A stretch of DNA of 37,684 nt from an uncultured bacterium (GTDB lineage Bacteria > Actinomycetota > Actinomycetes > S36-B12 > CAIYMF01): the NCBI GenBank assembly GCA_903927265.1, contig CAIYMF010000166.1, positions 1 to 37,684 on the forward strand, written 5' to 3'. Positions 2,054 to 16,633 of the stretch are shown piece by piece; within the stretch, counting starts at the first letter, position 1, and each line of letters starts with the position of its first letter. The notes under the pieces were generated by a model. It was not told the origin of the DNA and did not search any database. It worked only from the letters and a program-made list of their open reading frames with translations. The translations under genes and the position numbers were made by a program.

Positions 2054-3001
2054 TCAGGTGCGAACAAGCCCCTCAACGTGGCCGGGGCCAAAGCGTCGCC
2101 GATTGCGCACCGCTTTGCCCCAGGCTGGAAGTGCAACGGCGAGGCGGCGGCGCATTGAAACCGTCGCGCGTTTGTCGAACACCTCGTAGTCAATGTCTTC
2201 GACCGCATCCACGATGCCGCAATAGAGAACGCGCGCGGCCTCAATGCAGGGCTGTGATGACGGGTGCAGCATGCCGATACCAACGCGCGACTTCTCTTCA
2301 AGTTCGCGTACGCGTGCGATTTGAAACTGCAATGCCTCGCGTACCGCGGGAGTAACGATGCGCTTTTCAAGATCGGCGCGTGTGACGCCAAATTGTGCGA
2401 GGTCGTCGAGCGGAATATAGACCCGTCCCCGTTCGAGGTCTTCGCCGATGTCGCGCACGAAGTTGGCGAGTTGGAACGCGACGCCGAGATCCTTGGCCGG
2501 TTCGTACGCGTGCGGTGACGTGGGCTCAAGTACTGGAACCATCTGCAATCCGATGACCGCAGCTGAGCCGTAGACGTATTCGTACAGATCGTCGAAGGTC
2601 TGATATTCGGTGACAGTGAGGTCCATGCGCATCGAATGCAAGAACGCTTCGAAGTACTCGAGTGGAATGTCCCACCGCTTCACCGTGTCGACCACTGCCA
2701 TGCACACCGGATCGTCGCTGTGGCCGCGCTGTACATCGGCTAGGAATGCGTCGCCCCAGGTGTGGAGCCAGTGAGCCTTCTGCTCTTCGGTGAGAGTGGA
2801 TGCGAGGTCGTCGACAATCTCGTCGGCGTAGCGGGCGAACCCATAAAGCGCGTGCACATAGGGGCGCTTGCCCGCGGGGAGTAGCAGGGTGGCGAGGTAG
2901 TACGTCTTGCCGTGAGCCGCATTGAGTTCGCGGCACCGTTCATACGACGCACGCATGTCGGGGTCGGTGATACCGGCCGCATCCAACTCCTTCGCGCTCA
3001 C
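2054..3001 (-). CDS. crtB: Phytoene synthase
   Basis: Condenses two geranylgeranyl diphosphates to phytoene, the first committed C40 carotenoid step. From GTG 3001 the protein is 315 residues, normal for the family. Both Asp-rich Mg-diphosphate motifs are present: YADEIVDD (D60, D64) and FVRDIGEDLERGRVYIP (D184, D188). The open frame extends far upstream, but that part has no family similarity. An ATG at 3010 is directly abutted by GGGAGG (3011-3016), leaving no spacer, whereas the same motif sits 9 nt before GTG 3001, which I therefore prefer; the difference is three residues. It is divergent from the ribonuclease gene (start 3075) and separated from crtI and crtE by the mannosyltransferase and RNase/barstar genes. 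crtE and crtI in the window supply its substrate and use its product. Confidence 0.93.
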   Translation of the reverse strand: MSAKELDAAGITDPDMRASYERCRELNAAHGKTYYLATLLLPAGKRPYVHALYGFARYADEIVDDLASTLTEEQKAHWLHTWGDAFLADVQRGHSDDPVCMAVVDTVKRWDIPLEYFEAFLHSMRMDLTVTEYQTFDDLYEYVYGSAAVIGLQMVPVLEPTSPHAYEPAKDLGVAFQLANFVRDIGEDLERGRVYIPLDDLAQFGVTRADLEKRIVTPAVREALQFQIARVRELEEKSRVGIGMLHPSSQPCIEAARVLYCGIVDAVEDIDYEVFDKRATVSMRRRLAVALPAWGKAVRNRRRFGPGHVEGLVRT

Positions 3002-3074
3002 GGCGGCCATCCTCCCACGTCGAACTGGGGACACCCTCAGGGCGGCTTGGGAGGCCCTGGTCTGACACGATGCT

Positions 3075-3545: not shown

Positions 3546-3991
3546 GCGGCATGAGTGGTGTTCCTCGTCGACTGCGTCACGGAGCCTTGCGTGGTGTGTG
3601 GCATTGGCCCGTCGATGCGTCGGCCGAAGAAGTCGAAGCGATTGGTGGCGGACTCGAGTGGCACACGGTGGTACTCGACACCGCTGACGTCGAGAGCAAA
3701 GAAGCATTCCTGCAAGCGTGCGCCGAGACGTTCGCGCTGCCCAGTTGGTTCGGCATGAACTGGGATGCGTTGGTCGACTGCCTGTCCGACCTTGATGTGG
3801 GGGAGTCGATGGGCATCCTCATTGGGTGGCGCGGCTGGCAGTCATTGGCTGTCGCGGATCCGGAGGAGTTTGCCACTGCCGTCGATGTCTTTGGTGATGC
3901 CGCAACTCGTTGGCAGAACGACGAGGTTCCCGGCGCCGTGGTGCTGGTGGGCGAGGCAGACGGTTCGAATCCTGACCTCAGGGTTCTGTGA
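3542..3991 (+). CDS. Barstar-family ribonuclease inhibitor
   Basis: The 149-residue protein carries the barstar core: a beta strand LEWHTVVLDTADVESKEAFLQACAETFALPSWFGMNWDALVDCLSDLD with the characteristic GMNWDAL segment, then VLIGWRGWQ-type strands. It has about 30 extra N-terminal residues relative to classical barstar, as in longer actinobacterial homologues. It lacks a signal peptide, so it would protect the cytoplasm from the ribonuclease before export. It overlaps the ribonuclease stop (ATGA), which implies coupled synthesis. ATG 3551 is an alternative start. The 3' end overlaps the convergent mannosyltransferase gene by 14 bp. Confidence 0.9.
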   Translation: MSGMSGVPRRLRHGALRGVWHWPVDASAEEVEAIGGGLEWHTVVLDTADVESKEAFLQACAETFALPSWFGMNWDALVDCLSDLDVGESMGILIGWRGWQSLAVADPEEFATAVDVFGDAATRWQNDEVPGAVVLVGEADGSNPDLRVL

Positions 3992-5558
3992 GGTCGACTC
4001 TGTTGGGCCCCACAAACACCAACTGACGCGAGCGTGCCTGCGCTGGTGGGTCGTCGGGCGTGATTCCGTGTGAGAACTGCCGGCCGAGAACGAGTTCACG
4101 TTCGCGCGGACTAGCCAGTACGACGAACGCGATAGCGCCGGCGGCAAACAGCATGGCCAAACCGTCTTGAAGTTGCAGGAACGAGTTGGCAGTAGCGCTG
4201 GACTCAGCAAGGCCGTAGATGACGAAGGCGGCGGTACCGATCGTGATGGCGCGCAGGTGCCACGGTTTGCGAAGGCCGGTGGCGGCAACGAGGGGAAGGG
4301 CCCACAGCAGATACCACGCCTGAATTACGGGTCCGAGCAGCACGACGGCCGTGAATGCCAACGCGGCCGAGCGCACCGGCGAGCGCCCTTCAGGCTTGAA
4401 ACACAGCCACAGCACGACACCGACGGCGAGCGCCATGGCAAGTAGCCGGAAAACGGTGACCAATAGATCGGTGTAGTCACCAACTCCCAGGGCGTTACCA
4501 ATCGCGCCGGTGGCCATTCCGACTGCTGTCGAAGGTGAAAGCCAAGTGCGCACACTGCCGGGAGTGGTGAGCGCACGAATCCAGCCGAGTCCCACGCCGA
4601 TCATGGCGCCCATGATCACCAGCGTGAGCACGGAGATCACAGCAGTCGCCGCCCAGGTGGCGAAACGTCGACCCCAACTCGAGCGACTGCCAGCCCACAA
4701 CAACCCCACAAACGGCAATGCCAGCAGTGCGATCGGTTTTACGCCTCCCGCGAGCGTCACCAGTAGAACTCCTGGGATGGGTCGTCCCTCGGCGGCGAGG
4801 GTGATACCGGCGACCATGAGGCCGACCATGAGTGCGTCGTTGTGGGCACCCGCGATGAAGTGCATGAGGATGAGCGGGTTGAGAACGCCGAGCCATAGCG
4901 CCTTGCCGCCGTCGATTCCGTGCAGGAAAGCCAGTCGCGGCACAAACCATGCCATCAGCGCGACCCCGGCAACGGCCACCAACCGCAGCAGCAGACTGCC
5001 GAGGAAGGGTGAATCAGGCAGCAGGGTGGCGACCCCACGCTCGATCATCAGAAAGAAGGGACCATACGGAGTTGGTGCCTCAGCCCACATCGGATCGACG
5101 CCGTCGTTAAACCAGCCAGGAACAGTGGCGACCCCGTTGGTGTAGGGGTCAATGCCCGCTGCAACGAGTTTTCCTTGAGCAAAGTATGAGAAGACATCGC
5201 GACTGAACAGGGGAGCCGCAACCAGCAGCGGGGCGCACCACGCGGCGAGGGCTAGCCAGAGGCGCTGAACGGGGATGCGTACACCTGAGAGCAGGTCGGC
5301 ACCGAGCACGAGCCATGTCTGCAGCAGGAGTGCTCCGCCGGCGATGAGCATGATGCGTGCAATCGACACACCGATCGGGTTGGTGCGCATGGCGTCGACG
5401 ACCGACAGATCGAGCAGCGCGGAACCCAGCGGAAGCCAGCCCACACCAATGGAACCGAGAGTGATTAGTCCGGTGGCAACCGCCCCAGGAATGACGAACC
5501 TGCTGACGAAAACGGCGCGGCTCGTGGCCTCGTCGGGGATTCCGTCGGCCGTCGTCAT
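3978..5558 (-). CDS. MptB-like polyprenol-phosphate-mannose alpha-1,6-mannosyltransferase
   Basis: A 526-residue polytopic membrane protein with about a dozen predicted hydrophobic spans. The loop SRDVFSYFAQGKLVAAGIDPYTNG followed by PTPYGPFFLMIERG is characteristic of the MptA/MptB branch of GT-C glycosyltransferases, which use polyprenyl-phosphomannose outside the membrane to extend an alpha-1,6-mannan core. Further family-like segments are FIAGAHNDALMVGL and GGVKPIALLALPF. The start ATG is preceded by TATCCT with a 9-nt gap and by AGAGG, so either a very short leader or a Shine-Dalgarno start is possible. It sits 58 bp after crtI and could be cotranscribed with it. Acceptor specificity cannot be deduced. 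Confidence 0.85.
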   Translation of the reverse strand: MTTADGIPDEATSRAVFVSRFVIPGAVATGLITLGSIGVGWLPLGSALLDLSVVDAMRTNPIGVSIARIMLIAGGALLLQTWLVLGADLLSGVRIPVQRLWLALAAWCAPLLVAAPLFSRDVFSYFAQGKLVAAGIDPYTNGVATVPGWFNDGVDPMWAEAPTPYGPFFLMIERGVATLLPDSPFLGSLLLRLVAVAGVALMAWFVPRLAFLHGIDGGKALWLGVLNPLILMHFIAGAHNDALMVGLMVAGITLAAEGRPIPGVLLVTLAGGVKPIALLALPFVGLLWAGSRSSWGRRFATWAATAVISVLTLVIMGAMIGVGLGWIRALTTPGSVRTWLSPSTAVGMATGAIGNALGVGDYTDLLVTVFRLLAMALAVGVVLWLCFKPEGRSPVRSAALAFTAVVLLGPVIQAWYLLWALPLVAATGLRKPWHLRAITIGTAAFVIYGLAESSATANSFLQLQDGLAMLFAAGAIAFVVLASPRERELVLGRQFSHGITPDDPPAQARSRQLVFVGPNRVDLTEP

Positions 5559-5616: not shown

Positions 5617-7116
5617 TCAGCGTGACGCACGCGAGTGGTAGGTGGTGTCCGCGCCTGTGATGCGTTCTGCCGCCAGGCGGCCTGAAACGAGCACCATCGG
5701 CACACCCACGCCCGGCTGGGTTCCAGACCCGGCGAACACGACGTTCTCGCCCCACATGTTCGACGGCCGGAACGGGCCGGTTTGCAAGAACGAATGGGCC
5801 GCAGCGAAGGGGGCTCCCCGTTCCATTCCGCGGTCGGCCCAGTCTTGTGGAGTCGTGAGGTGTTCGACTTCGATGGCGTCGCCGAAACCGATGTATCCGC
5901 GTTCCTCGAGTACGCGCACCACCTCCTCGCGGTACCACGGACCTTCGGTTTTCCAGTCGATGCCGGCGTCGAGATTGGGTGTGGGAAACAGTACGTAGTA
6001 GATCTGCCGGCCGTCGGGGGCGAGTGCGGGATCGGAGTGGGTGGGGTTCGTGACCAAGACGGAGGGGTCAGTCATCAGGCGCTTCTCGTCAATGAGTTCG
6101 CGGAACACCCCCTTCCACGACTTGCCGAAGTGAATGTTGTGGTGCGCGATTTTCGAATAGGTGGCCGAGGAGCCGGCAAGGAGTAGGAAGCAGCTGGGCG
6201 AGTAGTTCAGTCGGCGTACATTCCATGGCTCTTCGCCGAGTAGGTCGCGGTAGGCCACCGGGAGGTCGGGATTGAGTACCACGACATCGGCCTCGATGCG
6301 CTCGCCGTCGGTGGTGATGACTGCGGTGGCGCGGTGGCCATTGTGCTCGACCTTCGCCACTTCGGTGTTGTAACGGAAGGTGACGCCGTGCTTGGCGGCC
6401 GCGCCAGCAAGTGCGCGCGGCACCGCGTTCATCCCGCCCTTGGGGAAGAACACCCCAGCCACGGAATCCATGTAGGCGATGACCGCGTAGATCGCGAGTG
6501 CGTCGTAAGGCGAGAGTCCGGCATACATCGACTGGAACGAAAACACGCGCTCGGTTCGTGGGTCGCGCAGGTACTGGCGCACTTTCGGCGCAAGTTTGCG
6601 GAATCCGCCGATGGCCGTGAGTCTGGCCAGATCAGGGGTGAGTAAGTCGAGGGGTGAGTCAATGTTGCGGTCGATGAAGTCCTTCATCTCGTAGCGGTAC
6701 AGGTCGCTGACGAAATCGACGTACTTGAGGTAACCGGCGGCTTCCTGATCTCCGATGACGCGACGGATTTCCTCGGCCATTTGTTGCGGATCGGCTTTCA
6801 CATCAAGCGTGGAGCCGTCGGGGTAATACGCGCGGTAGAGCGGATCAATGGGTTCGAGTTCGAGCCAGTCGGACATCTCTTCGCCCACGCAGTCGAGGGC
6901 GTCGGCGATGAGGTCGGGCATGGTGAGCACGGTCGGACCAGTGTCGAACTGGTAGCCGGCGTCGCTGATGAGTCCGGCCCGACCGCCGGGGATGGCTTCA
7001 CGTTCAAGCACGGTGACTTCGCGGCCAGCGCCGGCGAGGCGAAGCGCGGCGGAGAGTCCAGCAAGTCCCGCGCCCACGATGACGACTCGATTGGTGGGTC
7101 CGGTGACGGTACGCAT
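5617..7116 (-). CDS. crtI: Phytoene desaturase (lycopene-forming type)
   Basis: The 499-residue flavoprotein has the N-terminal FAD-binding dinucleotide fold (VVIVGAGLAGLSAALRLAGAGREVTVLE, residues about 11-38, then GGRAG) and the C-terminal CrtI signature GSGTQPGVGVPMVLVSGRLAAERI. Length and motifs fit bacterial CrtI, which dehydrogenates phytoene stepwise, normally to lycopene. The number of desaturations cannot be read from sequence. Upstream, TAGGCT (7126-7131) lies 9 nt before the ATG with GGAGG in between. It follows crtE by 177 bp containing a hairpin and precedes the mannosyltransferase gene. A second CrtI-like gene at 10115-11635 probably acts on the end group. Confidence 0.93.
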   Translation of the reverse strand: MRTVTGPTNRVVIVGAGLAGLSAALRLAGAGREVTVLEREAIPGGRAGLISDAGYQFDTGPTVLTMPDLIADALDCVGEEMSDWLELEPIDPLYRAYYPDGSTLDVKADPQQMAEEIRRVIGDQEAAGYLKYVDFVSDLYRYEMKDFIDRNIDSPLDLLTPDLARLTAIGGFRKLAPKVRQYLRDPRTERVFSFQSMYAGLSPYDALAIYAVIAYMDSVAGVFFPKGGMNAVPRALAGAAAKHGVTFRYNTEVAKVEHNGHRATAVITTDGERIEADVVVLNPDLPVAYRDLLGEEPWNVRRLNYSPSCFLLLAGSSATYSKIAHHNIHFGKSWKGVFRELIDEKRLMTDPSVLVTNPTHSDPALAPDGRQIYYVLFPTPNLDAGIDWKTEGPWYREEVVRVLEERGYIGFGDAIEVEHLTTPQDWADRGMERGAPFAAAHSFLQTGPFRPSNMWGENVVFAGSGTQPGVGVPMVLVSGRLAAERITGADTTYHSRASR

Positions 7117-7293: not shown

Positions 7294-8376
7294 TTACATC
7301 GAGCGGCTGGTGGCGGCGATCGCCAAACCCTCAAGCACGGTGACTGCCTCGGGGGCTAAGAGTGGCGACCGAGCCGCGGTGAGCGCGCGCTCGGTGTACT
7401 CGCTGATCGTTGACTCAGCGCGGGCGAGCGCACCCGATGTCGTGATGATCTCGCGCAGCGCATTTACGCCCTCAAGTGACAGAGCGGGGTCTCCGAGGTG
7501 TCGGCGCACCTCGTCTGCTTCCGCGGAGGTACACCGCTCGAGCGTCTCTGCGATGAGCACGGTGCGCTTGCCTTCGCGCAGGTCATCACCTGCCGGCTTA
7601 CCCGTTTGTGAGGGATCGCCGAAGACGCCAAGCACGTCGTCGCGCAATTGGAATGCCTCGCCGAGGGGGAGCCCGTAGTCGGACAGCGTGGCGATCACCT
7701 GGTCATTGGCACCTGCGAGTGAGGCACCGAGATGTAGGGGTCTCTCGATGGTGTACTTCGCCGACTTGTAGCGCACCACGGTGAGGGCGCGCTCAACCGA
7801 ACCGCCTCCGACTGCCTGCTCCAGAAGGTCGAGGTACTGACCGGCCATCAGTTCGGTGCGCATGATGTCGTACATGGCCTTACCGCGACGAAGTGAATCG
7901 GCGTCGAGTCCGCAGGTGTAGAGCAACTCGTCGGCCCATGACAGGCAGAGGTCTCCGAGCAAGATGGCGGCGCCGACGCCGAAGTTCTCCGGGGAACCCA
8001 GCCACCCGGCACCGCGGTGAATGGTGGCGAAGCGTCGATGGGCGGCCGGCATTCCACGGCGGGTATCGCTGCCGTCCATGACGTCGTCGTGGATGAGGGC
8101 GCAGGCTTGCAGGAATTCCAGTGAACTCGCGGCGACAATCGCTTCTTGGCAGTCGTTTCCACCTGCTGCACGCCAGCCCCAGTAACAAAATGCCGGGCGC
8201 AGTCGCTTGCCGCCGGCTAGCAGATCGCCGAGCGCATCACCGAGTGGCACTGTCTCGGGGCTGATCGATGTGAGGATGGGACGTTGTCGATCAAGGAAGC
8301 CGGTTACGACGTCCTGAACGCGAGCGCGAAGGTTCTCGGCATCGAGTGGGGAGGCCGCTCGAGAGGGTGATGTCAC
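7294..8376 (-). CDS. crtE: Geranylgeranyl diphosphate synthase (trans-polyprenyl synthase)
   Basis: The 360-residue protein is a trans-isoprenyl diphosphate synthase making the C20 precursor for phytoene. It shows the GGKRLRP substrate-binding segment (55-61), the first Asp-rich motif DDVMD (97-101) with following DTRRG, and the second QLRDDVLGVFGD (D246, D247, D254). Chain length is inferred from carotenoid context and typical length; a longer or shorter polyprenyl product is not excluded. The GTG start is favoured by TAGGCT (8383-8388) exactly 6 nt upstream, a leaderless arrangement. It is divergent from the methylenetetrahydrofolate reductase gene, whose start is only 32 bp away. Confidence 0.92.
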   Translation of the reverse strand: MTSPSRAASPLDAENLRARVQDVVTGFLDRQRPILTSISPETVPLGDALGDLLAGGKRLRPAFCYWGWRAAGGNDCQEAIVAASSLEFLQACALIHDDVMDGSDTRRGMPAAHRRFATIHRGAGWLGSPENFGVGAAILLGDLCLSWADELLYTCGLDADSLRRGKAMYDIMRTELMAGQYLDLLEQAVGGGSVERALTVVRYKSAKYTIERPLHLGASLAGANDQVIATLSDYGLPLGEAFQLRDDVLGVFGDPSQTGKPAGDDLREGKRTVLIAETLERCTSAEADEVRRHLGDPALSLEGVNALREIITTSGALARAESTISEYTERALTAARSPLLAPEAVTVLEGLAIAATSRSM

Positions 8377-8382
8377 ACACTG

Positions 8383-8388
8383 AGCCTA
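8383..8388 (-). promoter_or_regulatory. -10 element of crtE (leaderless)
   Basis: TAGGCT on the minus strand is followed by 6 nt and then the crtE GTG at 8376, which puts the expected transcription start on the start codon. No convincing -35 is seen. Its -35 zone would overlap the start codon of the divergent gene. Confidence 0.68.
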
Positions 8389-8396
8389 CCGACGCC

Positions 8397-8402
8397 TACC
8401 CT
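8397..8402 (+). promoter_or_regulatory. -10 element of the methylenetetrahydrofolate reductase gene (leaderless)
   Basis: TACCCT is followed by 6 nt and ATG 8409. The spacing predicts transcription starting at the A of the ATG. Its -35 zone would fall on the crtE start codon, so the two promoters overlap physically. Confidence 0.68.
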
Positions 8403-8408
8403 GAACCC

Positions 8409-9335
8409 ATGGCATTCGGCAGGAGGGGCGGCGCGGTCGGTCGACGACCGTCGCTCACTCGGTTACTCGGTGATGGTTCGCGGTCGGTGTCGTTTGAGTT
8501 CTTCCCGCCGAAAGACGCCGACGCCGAGGACGTGCTGTGGGGCGCGCTCTTCCAGCTGGAGGAGCTTGATCCCAGCTTCGTCTCGATCACCTACGGTGCC
8601 GGTGGCACCACACGCGACCGCACTGTCGACATCACGTCGTCCATTCAGCGGCGTACCACGCTCACCACGATCGCCCACCTCACCTGCGTTGGTTCATCGC
8701 GCGACGAACTCCATGATGTGATCGATGAGTACGCGGCCGCTGGAATTGAGAACGTGCTCGCGTTGCGTGGTGATCCCGCTGGGGGTCTAGGAACGGCCTG
8801 GGTTGCGCACGCTGACGGCCTCAATCACGCGGTTGAACTCGTTGAACTGCTTCGTGAGCGTGGCGGATTCTGTGTCGGAGTTGCAGCGTTTCCCAACGGT
8901 CACCCCGAGTCGACCTCGCTCGACCAGGACGCACGTGTTCTTGCCGACAAGCAACGCGCGGGTGCTGAGTTTGCGATCACACAGTTCTTCTTTCGATCAG
9001 CCGATTGGTTCCGACTGCGCGATCGCGCCGCTGCTGCCGGCTGCGATATGCCGATCATTCCGGGAATCATGCCGCTCACGAGCGTGACGCAAATTGAGCG
9101 ATTCGCGAGGTTGTCGGGGGTTGAATTTCCTGCCGAAGTCGCCGCGCGTTTTGAGGGAATTGAAGACGATCCGGTGGCGGTGCGAGAACGTGGTGTTGAG
9201 ATCGCGACGGAGTTGTGCGCGGAACTGCTTGAAGGGGGTGCGCCCGGTTTGCACTTCTACACGCTCAATCGCTCCACAGCCACACGCGAGGTGTACCGCA
9301 ATCTCATGAGCAACCCCCACCTCATTCGGCACTGA
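8409..9335 (+). CDS. metF: Methylenetetrahydrofolate reductase
   Basis: The 308-residue flavoprotein reduces 5,10-methylene-THF to 5-methyl-THF for methionine synthesis. Family hallmarks are SVSFEFFPPKD (catalytic Glu E30), SITYGAGGTTRDRT, IAHLTCVGSS, NVLALRGDP and IPGIMPLTS. ATG 8409 is chosen over the earlier in-frame ATG 8370 because TACCCT lies 6 nt upstream and the 8370 start would run into the crtE coding sequence. It is followed after 6 bp by the CDP-alcohol phosphatidyltransferase-like gene and probably cotranscribed with it. Confidence 0.94.
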   Translation: MAFGRRGGAVGRRPSLTRLLGDGSRSVSFEFFPPKDADAEDVLWGALFQLEELDPSFVSITYGAGGTTRDRTVDITSSIQRRTTLTTIAHLTCVGSSRDELHDVIDEYAAAGIENVLALRGDPAGGLGTAWVAHADGLNHAVELVELLRERGGFCVGVAAFPNGHPESTSLDQDARVLADKQRAGAEFAITQFFFRSADWFRLRDRAAAAGCDMPIIPGIMPLTSVTQIERFARLSGVEFPAEVAARFEGIEDDPVAVRERGVEIATELCAELLEGGAPGLHFYTLNRSTATREVYRNLMSNPHLIRH

Positions 9336-9341
9336 TCTGCC

Positions 9342-10013
9342 ATGGCCTTCACTCGCGACGAGTACTTCGAGCGTTGGTCGGAACTTCACGGCGGCTATGA
9401 CCCACGATCGTCTCGCTGGGCATTGGGGTGGCTGACCGGAATTCATGTGCTGGCAAAGCCGTTTGCTGCCATGCGTATTCCGCCCGATCTGATCACTGTG
9501 CTGGGAGTGCTCGTCGCCGGTGCTGCCGCCTGGCTCGCATCGCTGGGCGGTCGTTGGTGTCTGGCTGCCGCCGCTGTTGTGGTGCTGTCAGGAATCACCG
9601 ACAACCTTGATGGCGCAGTGGCGGTGATGACTGGTCGAACCACTCGCTGGGGTTATGTGCTGGATTCGGTTGTCGATCGCGTCAGTGACGGGTTGTACTT
9701 GGTCGCCCTGTGGCTGGCCGGTGCACCCGCGAGTGCGTGCGTGGTTGCTGGTGCGTTGATGGCCTTGCAGGAATATGCGAGGGCGCGGGCCGGTGCCGCG
9801 GGAATGAGTGAGGTCGGTGTTGTCACGGTGTGGGAGCGGCCGACCCGAATCGTGGTGACGACGATGTTCTTGATCGGCGCTGGTCTCTACCTGTCGGCCA
9901 CGGCGACATGGGCGACGTGGGGTTCGTGGGCGTGGGTGGGCCTCGGCGTCATTGGCCTCGTTCAATTGCTGATCGTGATACGACGCCGGCTTGCAGCACC
10001 CGACGCACACTGA
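9342..10013 (+). CDS. CDP-alcohol phosphatidyltransferase-like membrane protein
   Basis: The 223-residue protein has about five or six membrane spans and the CAPT-type aspartate array: D87-x2-D90-G, G104-x3-D108-x3-D112 in DNLDGAVAVMTGRTTRWGYVLDSVVDRVSD. These aspartates bind metal and CDP-alcohol in the family. The usual Ala-Arg after DG is altered: the conserved Arg position holds V95, so substrate or activity may differ. It starts 6 bp after the reductase stop and likely shares its promoter. Head-group (inositol phosphate, glycerol phosphate, other) cannot be told. A related but catalytically different membrane protein is possible. Confidence 0.78.
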   Translation: MAFTRDEYFERWSELHGGYDPRSSRWALGWLTGIHVLAKPFAAMRIPPDLITVLGVLVAGAAAWLASLGGRWCLAAAAVVVLSGITDNLDGAVAVMTGRTTRWGYVLDSVVDRVSDGLYLVALWLAGAPASACVVAGALMALQEYARARAGAAGMSEVGVVTVWERPTRIVVTTMFLIGAGLYLSATATWATWGSWAWVGLGVIGLVQLLIVIRRRLAAPDAH

Positions 10014-10114: not shown

Positions 10115-11635
10115 CTACTCGGCGCGGCCGATCAGATCGGCCACGATGCCCGCCGACAGTCCCACCAGCGGAAGCCCACCCCCCGGATGCGCGGAACCAC
10201 CTACGAGGAACAGTCCGGGCACGGGTGAGCGGTTCGACGGTCGCAAGAATGCTGAACGCGCGCCGTTAGACGAACTGCCGTAAATAGCGCCGCCGGGTGC
10301 TCGCGTATGGGCTTCTAGTCCGGCGGGAGTAAGAAGTTCCCGCCACACCACGCGGTCGCGAACATCGCAGCCGCGCGAGGCAAGTACGGCGAGCATTCGG
10401 TCGGCGTACGAGTCAGGCAGGCCCGGCTCATTCCAATTCAGCGTGCCGGTACCGGGTGCGCCGCTTCCATGTCGAGCGGCGTTGATGAGCACGAACCACG
10501 ATTCGTGATCAGCATCGGGACGCATGAGTGGATCGTCGGGTGAGCACACGTAGATCGTGGGGTCGTCGACTGGCATGACCGTGCGCTGCCGACCCGTTCC
10601 GAATACGGAATCGAACTCGGCGTCGTAGTTGGCAGGAAACCAGACGTTGTGGTGCTGCAGACCCGGGGTGCGTCCGCGCACAGCGAGCAGCATCACGAAG
10701 CCCGATAGCGAAGGAGTTGCTCGCCGGAGTTGGCGACGAGGAGCGTGAGCGGAGGAGAGCGCGGGATCGAGAAGATCGTCGTAGACGTGTTGAGCATCGG
10801 CGTTGGCGACCACGATGTCAGCGTCGAGACGCGAACCGTCAACGAGTTCAACGCCACAGACGCGTCCGCCGTCGGTGCGAATGCGTGCGACGTCGGTGTT
10901 GAACCGGTAGTCGACACCACGTTCGACACCACGTTCGTACAGCGCATCGGCGAGACGACGAATTCCGCCGCTGATGTGCCAGGCTCCAAACACCTGCTCG
11001 ACGTAGGGAACGGTGACCAATGCCGCCGGGGCACGGCGAGGATCAGAGCCGGTGTACGTCGCGTAACGATCGAGCAGGGTGACCAGTCGCGGATCGCGCA
11101 TCAACTGTTGGCCGAGTTTGCGTAGCGAGGTGAAGGGCGCGACCGTGCGAATATCGCGGGGTCGGCGCGCCATTGAGAGCAGATCGCGTGGACCTTCAAG
11201 CGGTGATTCGAGAACTGGTCGACGCGTGAGTTCCCAGATAGCGCTGGCGCGGTCGATGAGAGCGCGCCAATCGTCAGCGGCCTGGCCCCCGAGTGCATCA
11301 CCGAGTGCGTCAGCGCACAGGGCCGGGCCAGCCCCCGGCATTTCGACGATCGTGCCGTCGGACCATCGATAGCGGAAGGCGGGCTCGAGCGGAACGATAT
11401 CGAGCGTGTCATCTAGTGAGGCACCCGTGGACAAGAAGAGGTCGCGATACACCGCGGGAAGGGTCAGCAGACTCGGGCCGGTATCGAAGACGAATCCGTC
11501 ACGCTCGTACGTGCCGAGTTTGCCTCCATAGATCGGTGACTGCTCCAGCACAGTGACGTCATGTCGCTTCACGCGGAGGCGCGCAGCGGTCGCCATGCCA
11601 GCAACACCGGCGCCGATCACAATGACGCGGGCCAT
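10115..11635 (-). CDS. crtD: CrtD-like carotenoid 3,4-desaturase (CrtI family)
   Basis: A 506-residue CrtI-family flavoprotein: FAD site RVIVIGAGVAGMATAARLRVKRHDVTVLEQ (residues 3-32), GGKLG, FDTGPSLLTLP, and a C-terminal segment GGSAHPGGGLPLVGLSAGIVADLI. It is clearly distinct from the CrtI at 5617-7116. Being last in an operon with CruF-like, GT2 and CrtA-like genes, it most probably introduces the C-3,4 double bond into a 1-hydroxylated acyclic end group, as CrtD does in spheroidene and related pathways; this is inferred from context. Alternative roles within the CrtI family, such as another desaturation, cannot be excluded. Its ATG overlaps the glycosyltransferase stop by one base (TAATG). 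Confidence 0.82.
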   Translation of the reverse strand: MARVIVIGAGVAGMATAARLRVKRHDVTVLEQSPIYGGKLGTYERDGFVFDTGPSLLTLPAVYRDLFLSTGASLDDTLDIVPLEPAFRYRWSDGTIVEMPGAGPALCADALGDALGGQAADDWRALIDRASAIWELTRRPVLESPLEGPRDLLSMARRPRDIRTVAPFTSLRKLGQQLMRDPRLVTLLDRYATYTGSDPRRAPAALVTVPYVEQVFGAWHISGGIRRLADALYERGVERGVDYRFNTDVARIRTDGGRVCGVELVDGSRLDADIVVANADAQHVYDDLLDPALSSAHAPRRQLRRATPSLSGFVMLLAVRGRTPGLQHHNVWFPANYDAEFDSVFGTGRQRTVMPVDDPTIYVCSPDDPLMRPDADHESWFVLINAARHGSGAPGTGTLNWNEPGLPDSYADRMLAVLASRGCDVRDRVVWRELLTPAGLEAHTRAPGGAIYGSSSNGARSAFLRPSNRSPVPGLFLVGGSAHPGGGLPLVGLSAGIVADLIGRAE

Positions 11636-12780
11636 TAACGGCTACTTCCGTCGACAGTCACGAGTCGACCCTTCCACGTCAGCGTGCCGCGTCGGCGTCG
11701 ATTCCACGACATCGCCGTAAGAGTGGCGAGAGTCACGATCGAGACCGGGTGCGCCACAACATCGGGAAGGATTCGTTGCTGGGTGCGGCGCGCCACCATG
11801 ACACGACCGGCCACGGCGGCTGCATACCCGGCGAGACCGATGGTGCGCGTGAGTGGTGATCGGGCGGTGACCGCAGCAAGTGGAGGTACCACGTACGCCA
11901 GCGCGAGCGAGGTCATCACGGCAGCCGAACCGAGAGGGCTTCCGAACGCGGACCATAGCGATTTCGTGTACCCGTCAATGAGTGCGGGGCCGGTTGCGTA
12001 CATGCGACATGTTGCGAGGTCAGTTCCGTCGACAACCGTGCCGCGGCCGCTACTGCGCTTTACTGCGCGCATCAGCGCGACATCGTCGAGTACCTCGCCT
12101 CGCACGGAAGTAAACCCGCCCGCGCGACGCAGCGCGACGGCGTCGGCGACGAGGAACTGCCCGTTAGCCACCGCCAACGACTCGCGCCGACTGACCTCAG
12201 ACGCTCGCAGCGGAACGGTAGTGAGCCACGACCATTGCAGCAGCGGCTGGATCAGTCGGGGGAGTAGTCCGTCGGCCAATTGGCGCGGGTAGGGCGAGAT
12301 GAGATCGGCCGGCATCGATCGCAGGAGCGTGATCGCCTGAGCGAGAGCTGTGGGTTCAAGCACGACGTCAGCGTCGATGAAGACCAGAACAGATCCGGAA
12401 GCTTCGCGCGTGAGTCGTTCGCACGCCCATGGTTTGCCAAGCCACCCGGCGGGCAGCGGGTCAGCGCTTCCATCAACAACGCGGGTCTGTTGTCGGTCAG
12501 CGAGCGCCTCACGTGCGATGCCAGCTGTGCCGTCGGTTGATCCGTCGTCAAGAACGAGGATCTCGACGTCATCGAGTTCGACTTGGTTGACCACGGACGA
12601 CAGACACGCGTGCGCGTGCTGCGCCTCATTACGCATGGGGAGCAGCACCGAAACTCGCTCAGAGATTGCATCGACAGAAGCGGAAGGTCGGCGCATCAGG
12701 CGCAGATTGGCCGCGGTATGTACTGTGCCGGCGACTGCAAGGCCTGTGCCCACCGCAGTGAGGAGACGTACAGGTTTCAT
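11635..12780 (-). CDS. GT2 carotenoid glycosyltransferase, CruC/CrtQ-like
   Basis: The 381-residue protein has an N-terminal membrane segment (about 5-25), a GT-A fold domain with VSVLLPMRNE, DDGSTDGT (78-85), the nucleotide-sugar/metal motif D136-A-D138, PAGWLGKPWAC (110-120), GQF and EVLDDVALM, then two or three C-terminal hydrophobic spans. The GWLGKPWA segment recalls CruC/CrtQ-type carotenoid glycosyltransferases. It probably glycosylates the hydroxyl made by the CruF-like hydratase; the sugar is not predictable. It overlaps cruF (ATGA) upstream and crtD (TAATG) downstream, so the operon is translationally coupled. Confidence 0.83.
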   Translation of the reverse strand: MKPVRLLTAVGTGLAVAGTVHTAANLRLMRRPSASVDAISERVSVLLPMRNEAQHAHACLSSVVNQVELDDVEILVLDDGSTDGTAGIAREALADRQQTRVVDGSADPLPAGWLGKPWACERLTREASGSVLVFIDADVVLEPTALAQAITLLRSMPADLISPYPRQLADGLLPRLIQPLLQWSWLTTVPLRASEVSRRESLAVANGQFLVADAVALRRAGGFTSVRGEVLDDVALMRAVKRSSGRGTVVDGTDLATCRMYATGPALIDGYTKSLWSAFGSPLGSAAVMTSLALAYVVPPLAAVTARSPLTRTIGLAGYAAAVAGRVMVARRTQQRILPDVVAHPVSIVTLATLTAMSWNRRRRGTLTWKGRLVTVDGSSR

Positions 12781-13613
12781 GGCGCCCGTTCAGTGAGGCG
12801 TAGCGCGTACGGAACGGCGACGAGACCCATTGCAATACCGCCGATGATGCCTACCGCAGGTCGACCGAGGAAGAATACGTTGGCGATGATGCCGCCCAGC
12901 CACGTCCACAAATAGAGAGCGCCGGGTACCGCCTCGGGAGTGCGACGACGAGGCGCGGGGGCTGAAGGAGCCCGCCAATCAGGGTCGGGTAGCCGATTGA
13001 GAAGAAACATGAGAACGGCGGCGGCTAGTAGCCAGCCGAGGTAGTTGACGATCGGGATCCCAGGGATACCTGGCAGCGAAGGGCTCGGCGATTCCCATGT
13101 CCAGTAGCCCTCACCGACCATTTGCGGGTCGAGGAAGAGATCCCATGAGGCCAATGCCCACGCGGCCACGATGACTGCTCCGCGGCCAGTGGCGGCAAGC
13201 CGTCGCCCAACCAGTAACGCGGGGTAACTCATCATCGCCCACGCCAGTGGAATCACGACCGGCACATTCGACACAGTCCAACCGAGAGTGTCGGGTTGGT
13301 AGGAGTACGTGCTGAACGGCAACCCCGTTCGCGTGCCAACGAGTTCGATGACGAACCCGAACGCGATGGAGATCACGGCCCAGGCCAGGGTCCAACCCCA
13401 GCCGCGGTTAAGCCAGGCATGGCTCAATGACGAGAGGAAGAACGTGCACACGATGGCGATCGTCAACGTCGTTCGTGTTGACCCGCTGGCAAGCGGCCAC
13501 GCGATCTGTAGCAGCACCGTCGCGATGGCGAAGATCAGTGGAAGTCGACGAATCCATGGTGAGGGTCCGTCGTGTCGGTCGGAGTGCGGTCCGTTATAGA
13601 CGCGGATACTCAT
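12777..13613 (-). CDS. cruF: CruF-like carotenoid 1,2-hydratase (DUF422/PF04240)
   Basis: A 278-residue polytopic membrane protein with about seven hydrophobic spans. Family-like segments include PFSTYSYQPDTLGW, VPVVIPLAWAMMSYPALLVGRR, ALASWDLFLDPQMVGEGYWTWE and GIPIVNYLGWLL, matching CruF/bisanhydrobacterioruberin hydratase proteins that add water across the terminal C-1,2 double bond of acyclic carotenoids. ATG 13613 is preferred over the longer frame because it overlaps the crtA stop as ATGA and because the extension is arginine-rich and non-conserved. It sits second in the crtA-cruF-GT2-crtD operon and should supply the hydroxyl that is glycosylated. Confidence 0.88.
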   Translation of the reverse strand: MSIRVYNGPHSDRHDGPSPWIRRLPLIFAIATVLLQIAWPLASGSTRTTLTIAIVCTFFLSSLSHAWLNRGWGWTLAWAVISIAFGFVIELVGTRTGLPFSTYSYQPDTLGWTVSNVPVVIPLAWAMMSYPALLVGRRLAATGRGAVIVAAWALASWDLFLDPQMVGEGYWTWESPSPSLPGIPGIPIVNYLGWLLAAAVLMFLLNRLPDPDWRAPSAPAPRRRTPEAVPGALYLWTWLGGIIANVFFLGRPAVGIIGGIAMGLVAVPYALRLTERAP

Positions 13614-14368
13614 GAGGCGGCCCCCGCGATCGAGACCGGCTGGCCGCCGTAGTTGCCTGTGGCGCCGAGTAGTGCGAAGCGTGCGAAGAGTTCCTCTGCG
13701 TACCAACCTGTATCGACGGTGCGCTGCATCGCTTGCTGGTGGGGCGAGCGGCGATGGGCAAAGTCGGTGAGCGTTGCGTTGTCACGCCATGCGCTGAACG
13801 TTCCTTGCAGGCCAACCGGTGCCTCACCGATTCCGAGACGAAAGAGCACGCCGTCGATGTGGTCGAGGTCGCCCGACACTGCCGGAACTGACTTCCAGAA
13901 ATCAACCCACTGTGAGGGGCGAATGCGTGCGCGTGTGACCGCGGCGACAGGCCCGTCCCAACGGTGAGCAACGGGATCGCCAAAGGGTTGGCGACCGGCC
14001 CATGTGCCGCGTGCGCTCAGAGGTCGCATCGTGAATCTCGCGTGCTCATCGCAGATCGATTCCCAGCCGCGAGCCACGCTGCTGGTCGCAAATGTTTCGG
14101 CAGCTTCGGCATCGCTCCACGCGATCAGCGCGGCCCAGTGCCGGGCGTCAGCATCGCGCGTGGTGAAGGTGCGCCCCGAGCCCGTTCCGAGCATTTTGGC
14201 GAACGTGACTCCCGGAATGCGTCGAGCGCCGCTGCGATCTAGACCCATACGTGCGAGTGCTCGTGGGGCACGAGTGAGTGGAACTCCCCAGACATCGAGC
14301 GTGACCAGAGCCGGAACTGCTTCGCGAGCGCCCTCGGCGCCGCGAACGCTGTAATCGGCTTGACTCAC
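13610..14368 (-). CDS. crtA: CrtA-like carotenoid ketolase (spheroidene monooxygenase family)
   Basis: The 252-residue protein resembles CrtA of purple bacteria, which oxidises C-2 of acyclic carotenoids. Segments supporting this are VAAVTRARIRPSQWVDFWKSVPAVSGDLDHIDGVLFRLGIGEAPVGLQGTFSAWRDNATLTDFAHRRSPHQQAM and GWYAEELFARFALL near the C-terminus. GTG 14368 is chosen over ATG 14392 because TACTCT (14375-14380) lies exactly 6 nt upstream. It heads the second carotenoid operon and overlaps cruF by 4 bp. A 2-keto product is inferred from the family; regiospecificity in this organism is unknown. Confidence 0.85.
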   Translation of the reverse strand: MSQADYSVRGAEGAREAVPALVTLDVWGVPLTRAPRALARMGLDRSGARRIPGVTFAKMLGTGSGRTFTTRDADARHWAALIAWSDAEAAETFATSSVARGWESICDEHARFTMRPLSARGTWAGRQPFGDPVAHRWDGPVAAVTRARIRPSQWVDFWKSVPAVSGDLDHIDGVLFRLGIGEAPVGLQGTFSAWRDNATLTDFAHRRSPHQQAMQRTVDTGWYAEELFARFALLGATGNYGGQPVSIAGAAS

Positions 14369-14374
14369 CCTTGA

Positions 14375-14380
14375 AGAGTA
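14375..14380 (-). promoter_or_regulatory. -10 element of the crtA-cruF-GT2-crtD operon (leaderless)
   Basis: TACTCT on the minus strand, 6 nt, then GTG 14368. It lies in the 47-bp gap after the ABC permease gene, so the carotenoid operon has its own promoter. Confidence 0.68.
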
Positions 14381-14415
14381 GGGGACTGGCATGTGTGAAT
14401 GATGCGGCTCTCCGC

Positions 14416-15216
14416 TCAGCCTGCTCCGCGGGGAGTCCAACGGAAGACGCGGAGGGCAAGTACGAAGCCCACCACGGTCCAGATCACGAGCACGAGGGCG
14501 CACTTTCCTAGTTCCCAGGTTCCTGTTGCTTCCAGAGCCTGCGCGGTGTCGGGGAGGAAGACTGACCTCATGGCTTGCGTGAGCCATTTGAGCGGAAAGA
14601 GCGACGCGAACGTCTGCATCCATTGGGGTAACTGCGTGAAGATGAAGAACACTCCCGAGGTGAATTGCAAGATCAGTACGACGGGAGCAACGAGCGCCGA
14701 TGCACCCTTGCCGCTACGCGGAACGACGGAATAGGCGATGCCCAACAGTGTGCAGGCGATCAAGCCAAGCACGCTGACCCACACGAATGTGAACCATTGA
14801 GTGGCGGTGCTGGGCAGGTTGATGTGAAAGAAGAGCACACCAACCACGAGCAGCAGGAGGACCTGTGCGATGTAGGCGACGAAGACCATTCCGATCTTGC
14901 CGATGAAGTACGAGGCCTTCGGCATCGGTGTTCCCTGTAGACGCTTGAGTGTGCCGTCTTCGCGTTCCATCGGAATAGCAATCGCGAGGTTCTGAAACGA
15001 CGTGTAGAGCACGCCCGACGCGATCATGCCGGCGAGGAAATACTGCGCAAAGGTCACGCCGCTGCCACCCATGTCTTGGTTGGCAAACACCGATCCGAAG
15101 ATCACGAGCAGCACCATGGGGAGAGCGAAGTTGAAGACGGCCGATTCGCGATCGCGGAAGAACTGGCGCAGTTCGATGCCGACGCGTGCACGGCCGAGGC
15201 GAAGCGTGCGGCTCAT
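14416..15216 (-). CDS. ABC-2 type exporter permease
   Basis: The 266-residue protein has six predicted membrane spans with the ABC-2 layout: RQFFRDRESAVFNFALPMVLLVIFGSVF, an AQYFLAGMIASGVLYTSF segment, the IPMEREDGTLKRLQGTPMPKASYFIGK coupling region, and a later LTQAMRSVF segment. It should form the membrane part of an exporter with the adjacent ATPase. It is third in the padR-ATPase-permease operon; its ATG overlaps the ATPase stop (ATGA). Substrate is unknown; drug or lipid efflux under PadR control is the common theme for such operons. Confidence 0.9.
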   Translation of the reverse strand: MSRTLRLGRARVGIELRQFFRDRESAVFNFALPMVLLVIFGSVFANQDMGGSGVTFAQYFLAGMIASGVLYTSFQNLAIAIPMEREDGTLKRLQGTPMPKASYFIGKIGMVFVAYIAQVLLLLVVGVLFFHINLPSTATQWFTFVWVSVLGLIACTLLGIAYSVVPRSGKGASALVAPVVLILQFTSGVFFIFTQLPQWMQTFASLFPLKWLTQAMRSVFLPDTAQALEATGTWELGKCALVLVIWTVVGFVLALRVFRWTPRGAG

Positions 15217-16079
15217 GACTGTGCCCCATTTCGCTCGTTGTCGGCGTGTTCGTCGAGGAGCGCGAGGTAGGTATCTTCCAGCGTCGGTCTGCGCACGGTG
15301 AGATCTGGTATCTCGCCGGGGAATCGGGAGGCAAGTTCGTTGACCAAACGCGTGGGGGAGTGGGTGCGTTCGGATCTCTCGCCACCTTCGTCAACCCAAC
15401 TGACGATGGCTTCACCAGAATTGCGACCGCCGATCTTGCTGGGTGTATCGCAGGCGATGATGCGGCCTGAGGCGATCACCGCAACACGCTCGGCGAGATG
15501 CTCGGCCTCTTCGAGGTAGTGCGTGGTCAGCAGGATTGTGGTTCCTGCAGCCTTGAGTGCATCGATGAGTTCCCAAAATTCGCGCCGCGCCTCGGGATCG
15601 AAGCCGGTGGTTGGCTCGTCGAGGAACAACACATCGGGACTGCCGATCACGCCAAGGGCCACATCGAGGCGTCGACGCTGACCGCCCGAAAGCTTGTCAT
15701 TGCGAGCGTTTGTCTTCTCGGTGAGGCCCACTGATGCGATGACCTCATCGGGGTCGCGGGGTGAAGGATAGTAGCGCGCGAAGTGTCGAACCGCCTCGCG
15801 CACGGTGAGGTCACCGAGGTCGCGCGAGGTTTGCAGCACAATGCCCAAGCGGGCGCGCCAGGCCAGATCGCCGTTCTGGGGATCGACGCCGAGCACGCGC
15901 GCTTCACCCGAATCGGCGTGTCGGTATCCCTCAAGGATTTCCGTCGCCGTTGTCTTGCCCGCACCGTTGGGGCCGAGGAGGGCAACACATTCGCCATCGG
16001 CCACCTCAAGGCTGATTCCATCGAGTGCCTGATGGTCGCCGTAGCGCTTGGTGAGATTGACAACGCTGATAGCGCTCAT
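15213..16079 (-). CDS. ABC exporter ATP-binding protein
   Basis: The 288-residue ATPase contains Walker A GPNGAGKTT, signature LSGGQRRRLDVALG, Walker B VLFLDEPTTGFDP and the switch histidine in LLTTHYLEEAEHLAERV. The C-terminal about 70 residues (GRNSGEAIVSWVDEGG onward) form the accessory domain seen in DrrA-like proteins. ATG 16079 overlaps the padR stop as ATGA; upstream in-frame codons are non-conserved. It pairs with the permease encoded next. Confidence 0.93.
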   Translation of the reverse strand: MSAISVVNLTKRYGDHQALDGISLEVADGECVALLGPNGAGKTTATEILEGYRHADSGEARVLGVDPQNGDLAWRARLGIVLQTSRDLGDLTVREAVRHFARYYPSPRDPDEVIASVGLTEKTNARNDKLSGGQRRRLDVALGVIGSPDVLFLDEPTTGFDPEARREFWELIDALKAAGTTILLTTHYLEEAEHLAERVAVIASGRIIACDTPSKIGGRNSGEAIVSWVDEGGERSERTHSPTRLVNELASRFPGEIPDLTVRRPTLEDTYLALLDEHADNERNGAQS

Positions 16080-16633
16080 GGTGAATCCTTTCCCGAGGAT
16101 TTCGGTGGTGCGAGGATGGTGGCGCGCGTTTCGTTGACCCACGCGAGTTGTGCCCGTGCAGCATGTTCGCCCGCACTGACGGTTGCGAGCCAGTAGTGAC
16201 CGTGTACTGAGTGGTGCTCTCCATTGGCAATCTGTTCGCGAGCAGCGGCAAAGGTCGACAGTTGTTCACGTGCCTGCAATTCCGTGCGATCGAGAATTGC
16301 TGCGAGATCATTGTCGTCGAGGGAGGCACCGAAGAAGACCCTCAGCAATGTGGCGTTGCGCGGCTGTTGCCGCTCGGGCTCGTCGCGTAAGCGGCGAGTG
16401 AGTTCACGTCGCCCCGCTGCCGTGATGCGGTAGGTCGAGGAGCGATCGACGCTGGTTGACGTGACGAATCCGAGTTGCTGCAGGGTGGCCAGGCACGGAT
16501 AAATCTGTCCAAAACTTTCATGCCAGAAGTGGCCGAGGACATCGGTGATCGCCTGACGAAGTTCGTACCCGGTCATGGGCTGAATCGACAGAGCGCCCAG
16601 TACCGCGAGGTCTGTTTGAGACTGACGTGCCAT
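16076..16633 (-). CDS. PadR-family transcriptional regulator
   Basis: The 185-residue protein has an N-terminal winged helix (LAVLGALSIQPMTGYELRQAITDVLGHFWHESFGQIYPCLATLQQLGFV, residues 9-57) and a helical C-terminal dimerisation domain, the PadR plan. It is the first gene of the exporter operon. The -10 TATAGT (16640-16645) is 6 nt before the ATG and is overlapped by a perfect 19-bp palindrome at 16641-16659, implying autorepression. The same site lies 40 bp upstream of the divergent PPOX gene and may control it too. Confidence 0.92.
   Translation of the reverse strand: MARQSQTDLAVLGALSIQPMTGYELRQAITDVLGHFWHESFGQIYPCLATLQQLGFVTSTSVDRSSTYRITAAGRRELTRRLRDEPERQQPRNATLLRVFFGASLDDNDLAAILDRTELQAREQLSTFAAAREQIANGEHHSVHGHYWLATVSAGEHAARAQLAWVNETRATILAPPKSSGKDSP

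Follow-up and report, generated by a model that had tools for sequence, protein, structure and literature searches.

A compact crtA-cruF-GT2-crtD gene block of an uncultured actinobacterium as a likely psi-end modification unit for a monocyclic, sioxanthin-type carotenoid

The crtA-like, cruF, family-2 glycosyltransferase (GT2) and crtD genes found in the window, i.e. in the whole stretch of 37,684 nucleotides analyzed here (contig CAIYMF010000166.1), likely constitute the unit that modifies the open psi-end (the “tail”) of a C40 carotenoid in an actinobacterial pathway, with a monocyclic product of the sioxanthin type. Most likely, the block is an ordinary member of this known pathway and not the basis of a new keto pigment. 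A preliminary description of this DNA had predicted an acyclic, possibly undescribed 2-keto carotenoid glycoside; the gene families that it named are supported by the profile matches given below, and crtE, crtB and crtI are indeed present nearby on the same strand. The genes concerned are the following:

13610..14392, minus strand: crtA-like gene of the heme-type monooxygenase family, predicted psi-end carotenoid 2-hydroxylase (NF045923 CrtA family, 4.8e-54, 183 bits)
12777..13613, minus strand: cruF, predicted psi-end carotenoid 1,2-hydratase (PF04240, 2.5e-32; TIGR03460, 1e-29)
11635..12780, minus strand: GT2, family-2 glycosyltransferase, predicted to glycosylate the 1-OH (PF00535, 1.7e-18)
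10115..11635, minus strand: crtD, predicted 1-hydroxycarotenoid 3,4-desaturase (NF045637, 5e-104)
9342..10013, plus strand: CDP-alcohol phosphatidyltransferase, a neighbor outside the pathway with conserved position (PF01066, 4.6e-13)
8346..9335, plus strand: metF-like gene, a neighbor outside the pathway that also occurs in the Salinispora locus and is conserved in much of the order
7294..8376, minus strand: crtE/idsA-like prenyl diphosphate synthase (PF00348, 9.7e-53; best NCBIfam model that of the mycobacterial GFPPS)
5617..7116, minus strand: crtI, phytoene desaturase (TIGR02734, 500 bits, over the cut-off)
about 2054..3010, start approximate, minus strand: crtB, phytoene synthase (NF045686, 5.8e-62)

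We infer the enzyme activities, the site and kind of the sugar, the ring type and the order of steps as follows. CrtE, CrtB and CrtI would supply lycopene, one end of which would be closed by a heterodimeric CrtYc/CrtYd cyclase encoded just outside the window. At the open end, CruF would hydrate C1-C2 to give the 1-OH, CrtD would desaturate the 3,4 position, the CrtA homologue would place a single oxygen on C2 in an O2- and heme-dependent 2-hydroxylation, and the GT2 would attach a sugar to the 1-OH. The expected pigment is a 1'-glycosyloxy-2'-hydroxy-3',4'-didehydro-gamma-carotene of the phleixanthophyll type; should the genome encode an unrecognized CrtU, it would instead be the phi-ring analogue. 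With a beta ring and glucose as the sugar, the product would exactly match phleixanthophyll of Mycobacterium phlei. Calculated masses are about 730.48 for the glucoside with 2-OH (C46H66O7), about 728.47 for that with a 2-keto group (C46H64O7) and about 726.45 for the phi-ring form with 2-OH (C46H62O7), acyclic and monocyclic products being of equal mass. The 1-hydroxy, 3,4-desaturated and glycosylated psi-end of a lycopene derivative, which the preliminary description had proposed, is likewise what the gene families predict.

According to the ORF check of the window, the four genes follow one another on the minus strand in the order crtA-like, cruF, GT2, crtD, from 14392 or 14368 down to 10115, and they overlap throughout, in agreement with the overlaps of 1-4 bp reported before. 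The end of crtA (13610) and the ATG of cruF (13613) share an ATGA, which gives an overlap of 4 bp; the same applies to the end of cruF (12777) and the ATG of GT2 (12780); and at 11635 the GT2 end coincides with the crtD start in a TAATG, with an overlap of 1 bp. As the proteins encoded by all four genes are 87-95% identical to those of a same-genus genome (locus L119), chance can be excluded for this arrangement, and the four-gene operon is real and conserved. For crtA, two starts come into question, the GTG at 14368 and the in-frame ATG at 14392, the latter being a GTG in the sister genome. A TACTCT box lies 6 bp ahead of the GTG at 14368 and is kept in the sister genome, and a leaderless promoter common to the four genes is therefore possible. 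Read-through is equally possible, since the upstream ABC permease gene lies on the same strand and ends only 23 or 47 bp from the crtA start, depending on which start is used. This permease belongs to a group of genes at 14416-16633 (minus strand), directly upstream of crtA, that encode a PadR regulator and an ABC transporter of DrrA/DrrB-like type. The transporter genes recur with 62-66% identity in a second genus of this family (L015, L017), but there they are found directly downstream of crtA. The transporter may export the pigment, or it may merely be a repeated neighborhood.

The closest parallel is the sioxanthin pathway of Salinispora, a genus that produces sioxanthin (PMC8469146). In Salinispora mooreana (L071), crtA is followed by an extra gene, then by cruF, which is syntenic with the window cruF, GT2, crtD, the CDP-alcohol transferase, metF and crtE, so that the window shares the order crtA-cruF-GT2-crtD as well as the continuation into CDP-alcohol transferase, metF and crtE. 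This bears out the previously suggested link to actinobacterial glycosylated carotenoids. The two systems differ in that the four genes of the window overlap and crtI and crtB lie in the same cluster, whereas the Salinispora block contains gaps, one of which holds the extra gene. CrtI and CrtD of the window are 63% and 51% identical to their Salinispora counterparts. Most NCBIfam equivalog cut-offs are missed by the window proteins, and the Salinispora counterparts miss them likewise; for CrtD, NF045637 is the best model with 348 bits and a cut-off of 580. The psi-end predicted for the window, with 1-O-sugar, 2-OH and 3,4-didehydro bond, equals that of sioxanthin, and the predicted end group thus is not an undescribed one.

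Nor is the association with a CrtA homologue unusual, as had been supposed. Hundreds of stretches in the genome collection contain a CrtA homologue, and the best 80 belong nearly all to Actinomycetota. Among the 61 named loci that extend 6 kb or more past crtA, the genes crtA, cruF, GT2 and crtD lie in this order on one strand within 8 kb in 40 cases, and the genera with this four-gene block include Salinispora, Micromonospora, Gordonia, Kineosporia, Kineococcus, Frankia and Nocardioides. The other 21 loci come mainly from relatives of Geodermatophilus and Blastococcus, in which crtA stands apart. In Geodermatophilaceae (L038, L039, L042, L062 and others), crtA has no cruF, GT2 or crtD nearby, and the protein is 50-56% identical to the window CrtA. 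In the relatives of the window genome, a CrtA homologue is present in 32 of 60. The sioxanthin-type tail block is kept in compact form throughout an order of aquatic Actinomycetota, most of them uncultured, for which no pigment analysis was found in the literature searched.

What speaks for a monocyclic product? The preliminary description had seen no cyclase and had postulated an acyclic pigment, which is unlikely because a cyclase is present in the same genome, by synteny in the neighborhood of the crt cluster, and in all CrtA-positive relatives. At its very end, contig C252 of the window's own genome carries crtYc (TIGR03462, 71.7 bits) together with a truncated crtYd. In the same-genus genome, crtYc and crtYd adjoin the crt cluster, and since L119 matches position 1 of C252 at its position 1153 and position 3 of the window at its position 1844, the cyclase genes would lie about 0.7 kb past the left end of the window, with C252 and the window joined by synteny only. 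In those relatives for which a single stretch covered both ends, crtYc is found next to crtB, at the cluster's far end. A genome-level cyclase for a sioxanthin-like pathway is thus present, but it is of the CrtYc/CrtYd type and not a CrtY; PF05834 matches in the same genome cover the N-terminal Rossmann part only and were rejected as CrtY-type cyclases. The preliminary description had also named a cyclase elsewhere with a beta-ring product as a finding that would contradict it; of this, the genome search supplies the first half, the cyclase. Taken together, crtYc/crtYd occur in 54 of the 60 relatives, and the cyclase is kept in 32/32 CrtA-positive versus 22/28 CrtA-negative relatives (Fisher p 0.0075, with kinship ignored). 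It could in principle be that lycopene is modified at one or both ends to an acyclic pigment and that the cyclase serves only the supply of beta-carotene and retinal. The rhodopsin genes of 24 of 60 relatives, among them the same-genus genome (G001:C1:14241-14921), make such a separate use plausible, but no rhodopsin was found in the window's own genome, and together with the retention of the cyclase in every CrtA-positive relative this makes the acyclic alternative unlikely.

The type of ring in the presumed monocyclic product is a matter of its own. Salinispora has a CrtY-type cyclase and a phi-ring, whereas the window genome has CrtYc/CrtYd, and no match to the likely Salinispora CrtU was found in it. 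For the latter, Salinispora flavoproteins were compared with all PF01593 matches of the window's own genome. L182, an HpnE/zeta-carotene-desaturase-like protein, is the likeliest Salinispora CrtU, and in a search without positive control no counterpart of it was found in the own genome or in the relatives at E<=1e-30. As no CrtU counterpart was found, a beta ring is tentatively taken as the simplest guess. Salinispora L178 was rejected as CrtU, as it is L-amino acid oxidase-like. Another flavoprotein of the own genome, L167, matches Salinispora L180 with 44% identity. A CrtO-like flavoprotein is encoded elsewhere in the own genome (C270) with 289 bits at a cut-off of 1000, and Salinispora has a distant homologue with 27% identity; it is possible that the CrtO-like protein adds a keto group to the ring.

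The position of the sugar depends on the GT2. Its best NCBIfam models are HpnB (119 bits) and CruG (95 bits), both far under their cut-offs. With CruG as the second-best model, the GT2 might act like the cyanobacterial CruG on the 2-OH, resulting in a myxoxanthophyll-like 2'-O-glycoside. However, with 94.6 bits it stays far under the cut-off of 600 of the CruG model NF045692 (2'-O-glycosyltransferase), and the Salinispora GT2, of which the window GT2 is the positional counterpart, has the same profile (HpnB 131, CruG 114 bits), yet the sugar of sioxanthin is at 1' (PMC8469146). A CruG-like action is therefore improbable, and 1-O-glycosylation by the GT2 is the preferred assignment by analogy, because the sioxanthin sugar sits at C1'.

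The remaining oxygen function is assigned to the CrtA homologue, which homology, fold and invariant residues place in the CrtA superfamily of ketolases and 2-hydroxylases. In the AlphaFold model (pLDDT 82), the protein forms a dimeric alpha/beta barrel that resembles those of ABM monooxygenases and of aldoxime dehydratase, a heme enzyme, and in the alignment 24 positions, including H218 as candidate heme ligand, are invariant and common to the purple-bacterial and actinobacterial groups. Purple-bacterial CrtA, the spheroidene monooxygenase, hydroxylates C2 twice in succession, after which water is lost and the 2-keto group results; the reaction uses O2, reduced ferredoxin and a five-coordinate heme (PMC10604819). 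In contrast to this, flavobacterial CrtA from Nonlabens and Flavobacterium P99-3 carries out a single 2-hydroxylation, as demonstrated in E. coli in combination with CruF and CrtD (PMC11855829), and an earlier survey derived the ketolase from a hydroxylase (PMC2889829).

For the window protein, a single 2-hydroxylation is the better prediction, as sioxanthin bears a 2'-OH and Salinispora has the corresponding block. The sioxanthin psi-end carries a 2'-hydroxyl, and no 2'-keto group, beside a 1'-glucosyl and the 3',4' double bond (PMC8469146), and we infer that the Salinispora CrtA homologue is responsible for this 2'-hydroxylation. The window CrtA reaches 183-184 bits with the ketolase equivalog NF045923 and the Salinispora CrtA 157 bits, both below the cut-off of 300, while the purple-bacterial reference from Roseobacter litoralis reaches 370; in the window's order, none of 21 genomes searched had a CrtA over this cut-off. 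In a maximum-likelihood tree of purple and actinobacterial proteins, without Bacteroidota CrtA-OH sequences, the purple CrtA sequences are set apart in a fully supported group of their own, and the protein of the window falls inside the actinobacterial clade, where it groups with that of Salinispora. Twelve positions that are invariant in five purple CrtA proteins are conserved otherwise in the actinobacterial clade (68, 70, 81, 82, 172, 181, 194, 197, 208, 225, 231 and 236 in the numbering of the window protein), and they are candidates for the difference between ketolase and hydroxylase. The window CrtA shares the family and the probable heme site with the purple proteins, but identity to them is 34-38%, and purple crtA lies in the photosynthesis cluster adjoining bchI, unlike the crtA of the window.

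The 2-keto product that had been predicted would require a true 2-ketolase, with two hydroxylations at C2, loss of water and a 2-keto-1-glycosyl carotenoid as result. The family relationship with a purple enzyme that acts in precisely this way, the shared invariant positions and the reported combination of hydroxylase and ketolase action in CrtA enzymes (PMC5822342) agree with such an activity, but the score under the cut-off, the separate clade, the twelve differing positions and the 2'-OH pigment that accompanies the Salinispora homologue argue against it and make it quite unlikely. That CrtA performs both hydroxylations within a monocyclic pathway, giving an undescribed 2-keto-1-glycosyl-3,4-didehydro carotenoid that might serve as antenna for the rhodopsins of some relatives, is highly improbable. 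For the preferred 2-hydroxylase assignment, the literature searched yielded no measured activity of any member of the actinobacterial CrtA clade. This assignment also corrects a naming trap, as an actinobacterial match to “spheroidene monooxygenase” is less likely to be a ketolase than a 2-hydroxylase from a pathway to glycosylated carotenoids. The myxol pathway of Nonlabens and Flavobacterium employs the same three families (CruF, CrtD and CrtA-OH) on the psi-end as does the window, but the respective gene cluster lacks a glycosyltransferase and contains CrtY and CrtZ (PMC11855829).

Some further observations concern the surroundings of the block and the distribution of its genes. Between crtI and crtB, at 3978-5558 (minus strand), the window encodes an MptA/MptB-type mannosyltransferase (TIGR03459, “crt_membr”, 238 bits; MptB 205 bits, over the cut-off), whose position is kept across much of the order. 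Mycobacteria and corynebacteria have a metF-idsA-mptA neighborhood, and as the mannosyltransferase together with metF and the idsA-like crtE resembles it, the enzyme may function in lipomannan synthesis rather than in carotenoid formation. A 386 kb plasmid of Deinococcus taeanensis carries a lone CrtA homologue annotated as hypothetical protein (L156:7932-8717), with no annotated carotenoid genes within the 16.7 kb examined. The aquatic-actinobacterial crt cluster described here is also found on two contigs of public MAGs that bear the title Bifidobacterium breve (L053, L099), L099 with crtA and part of cruF only before the contig ends, and because of this content their titles are probably wrong.
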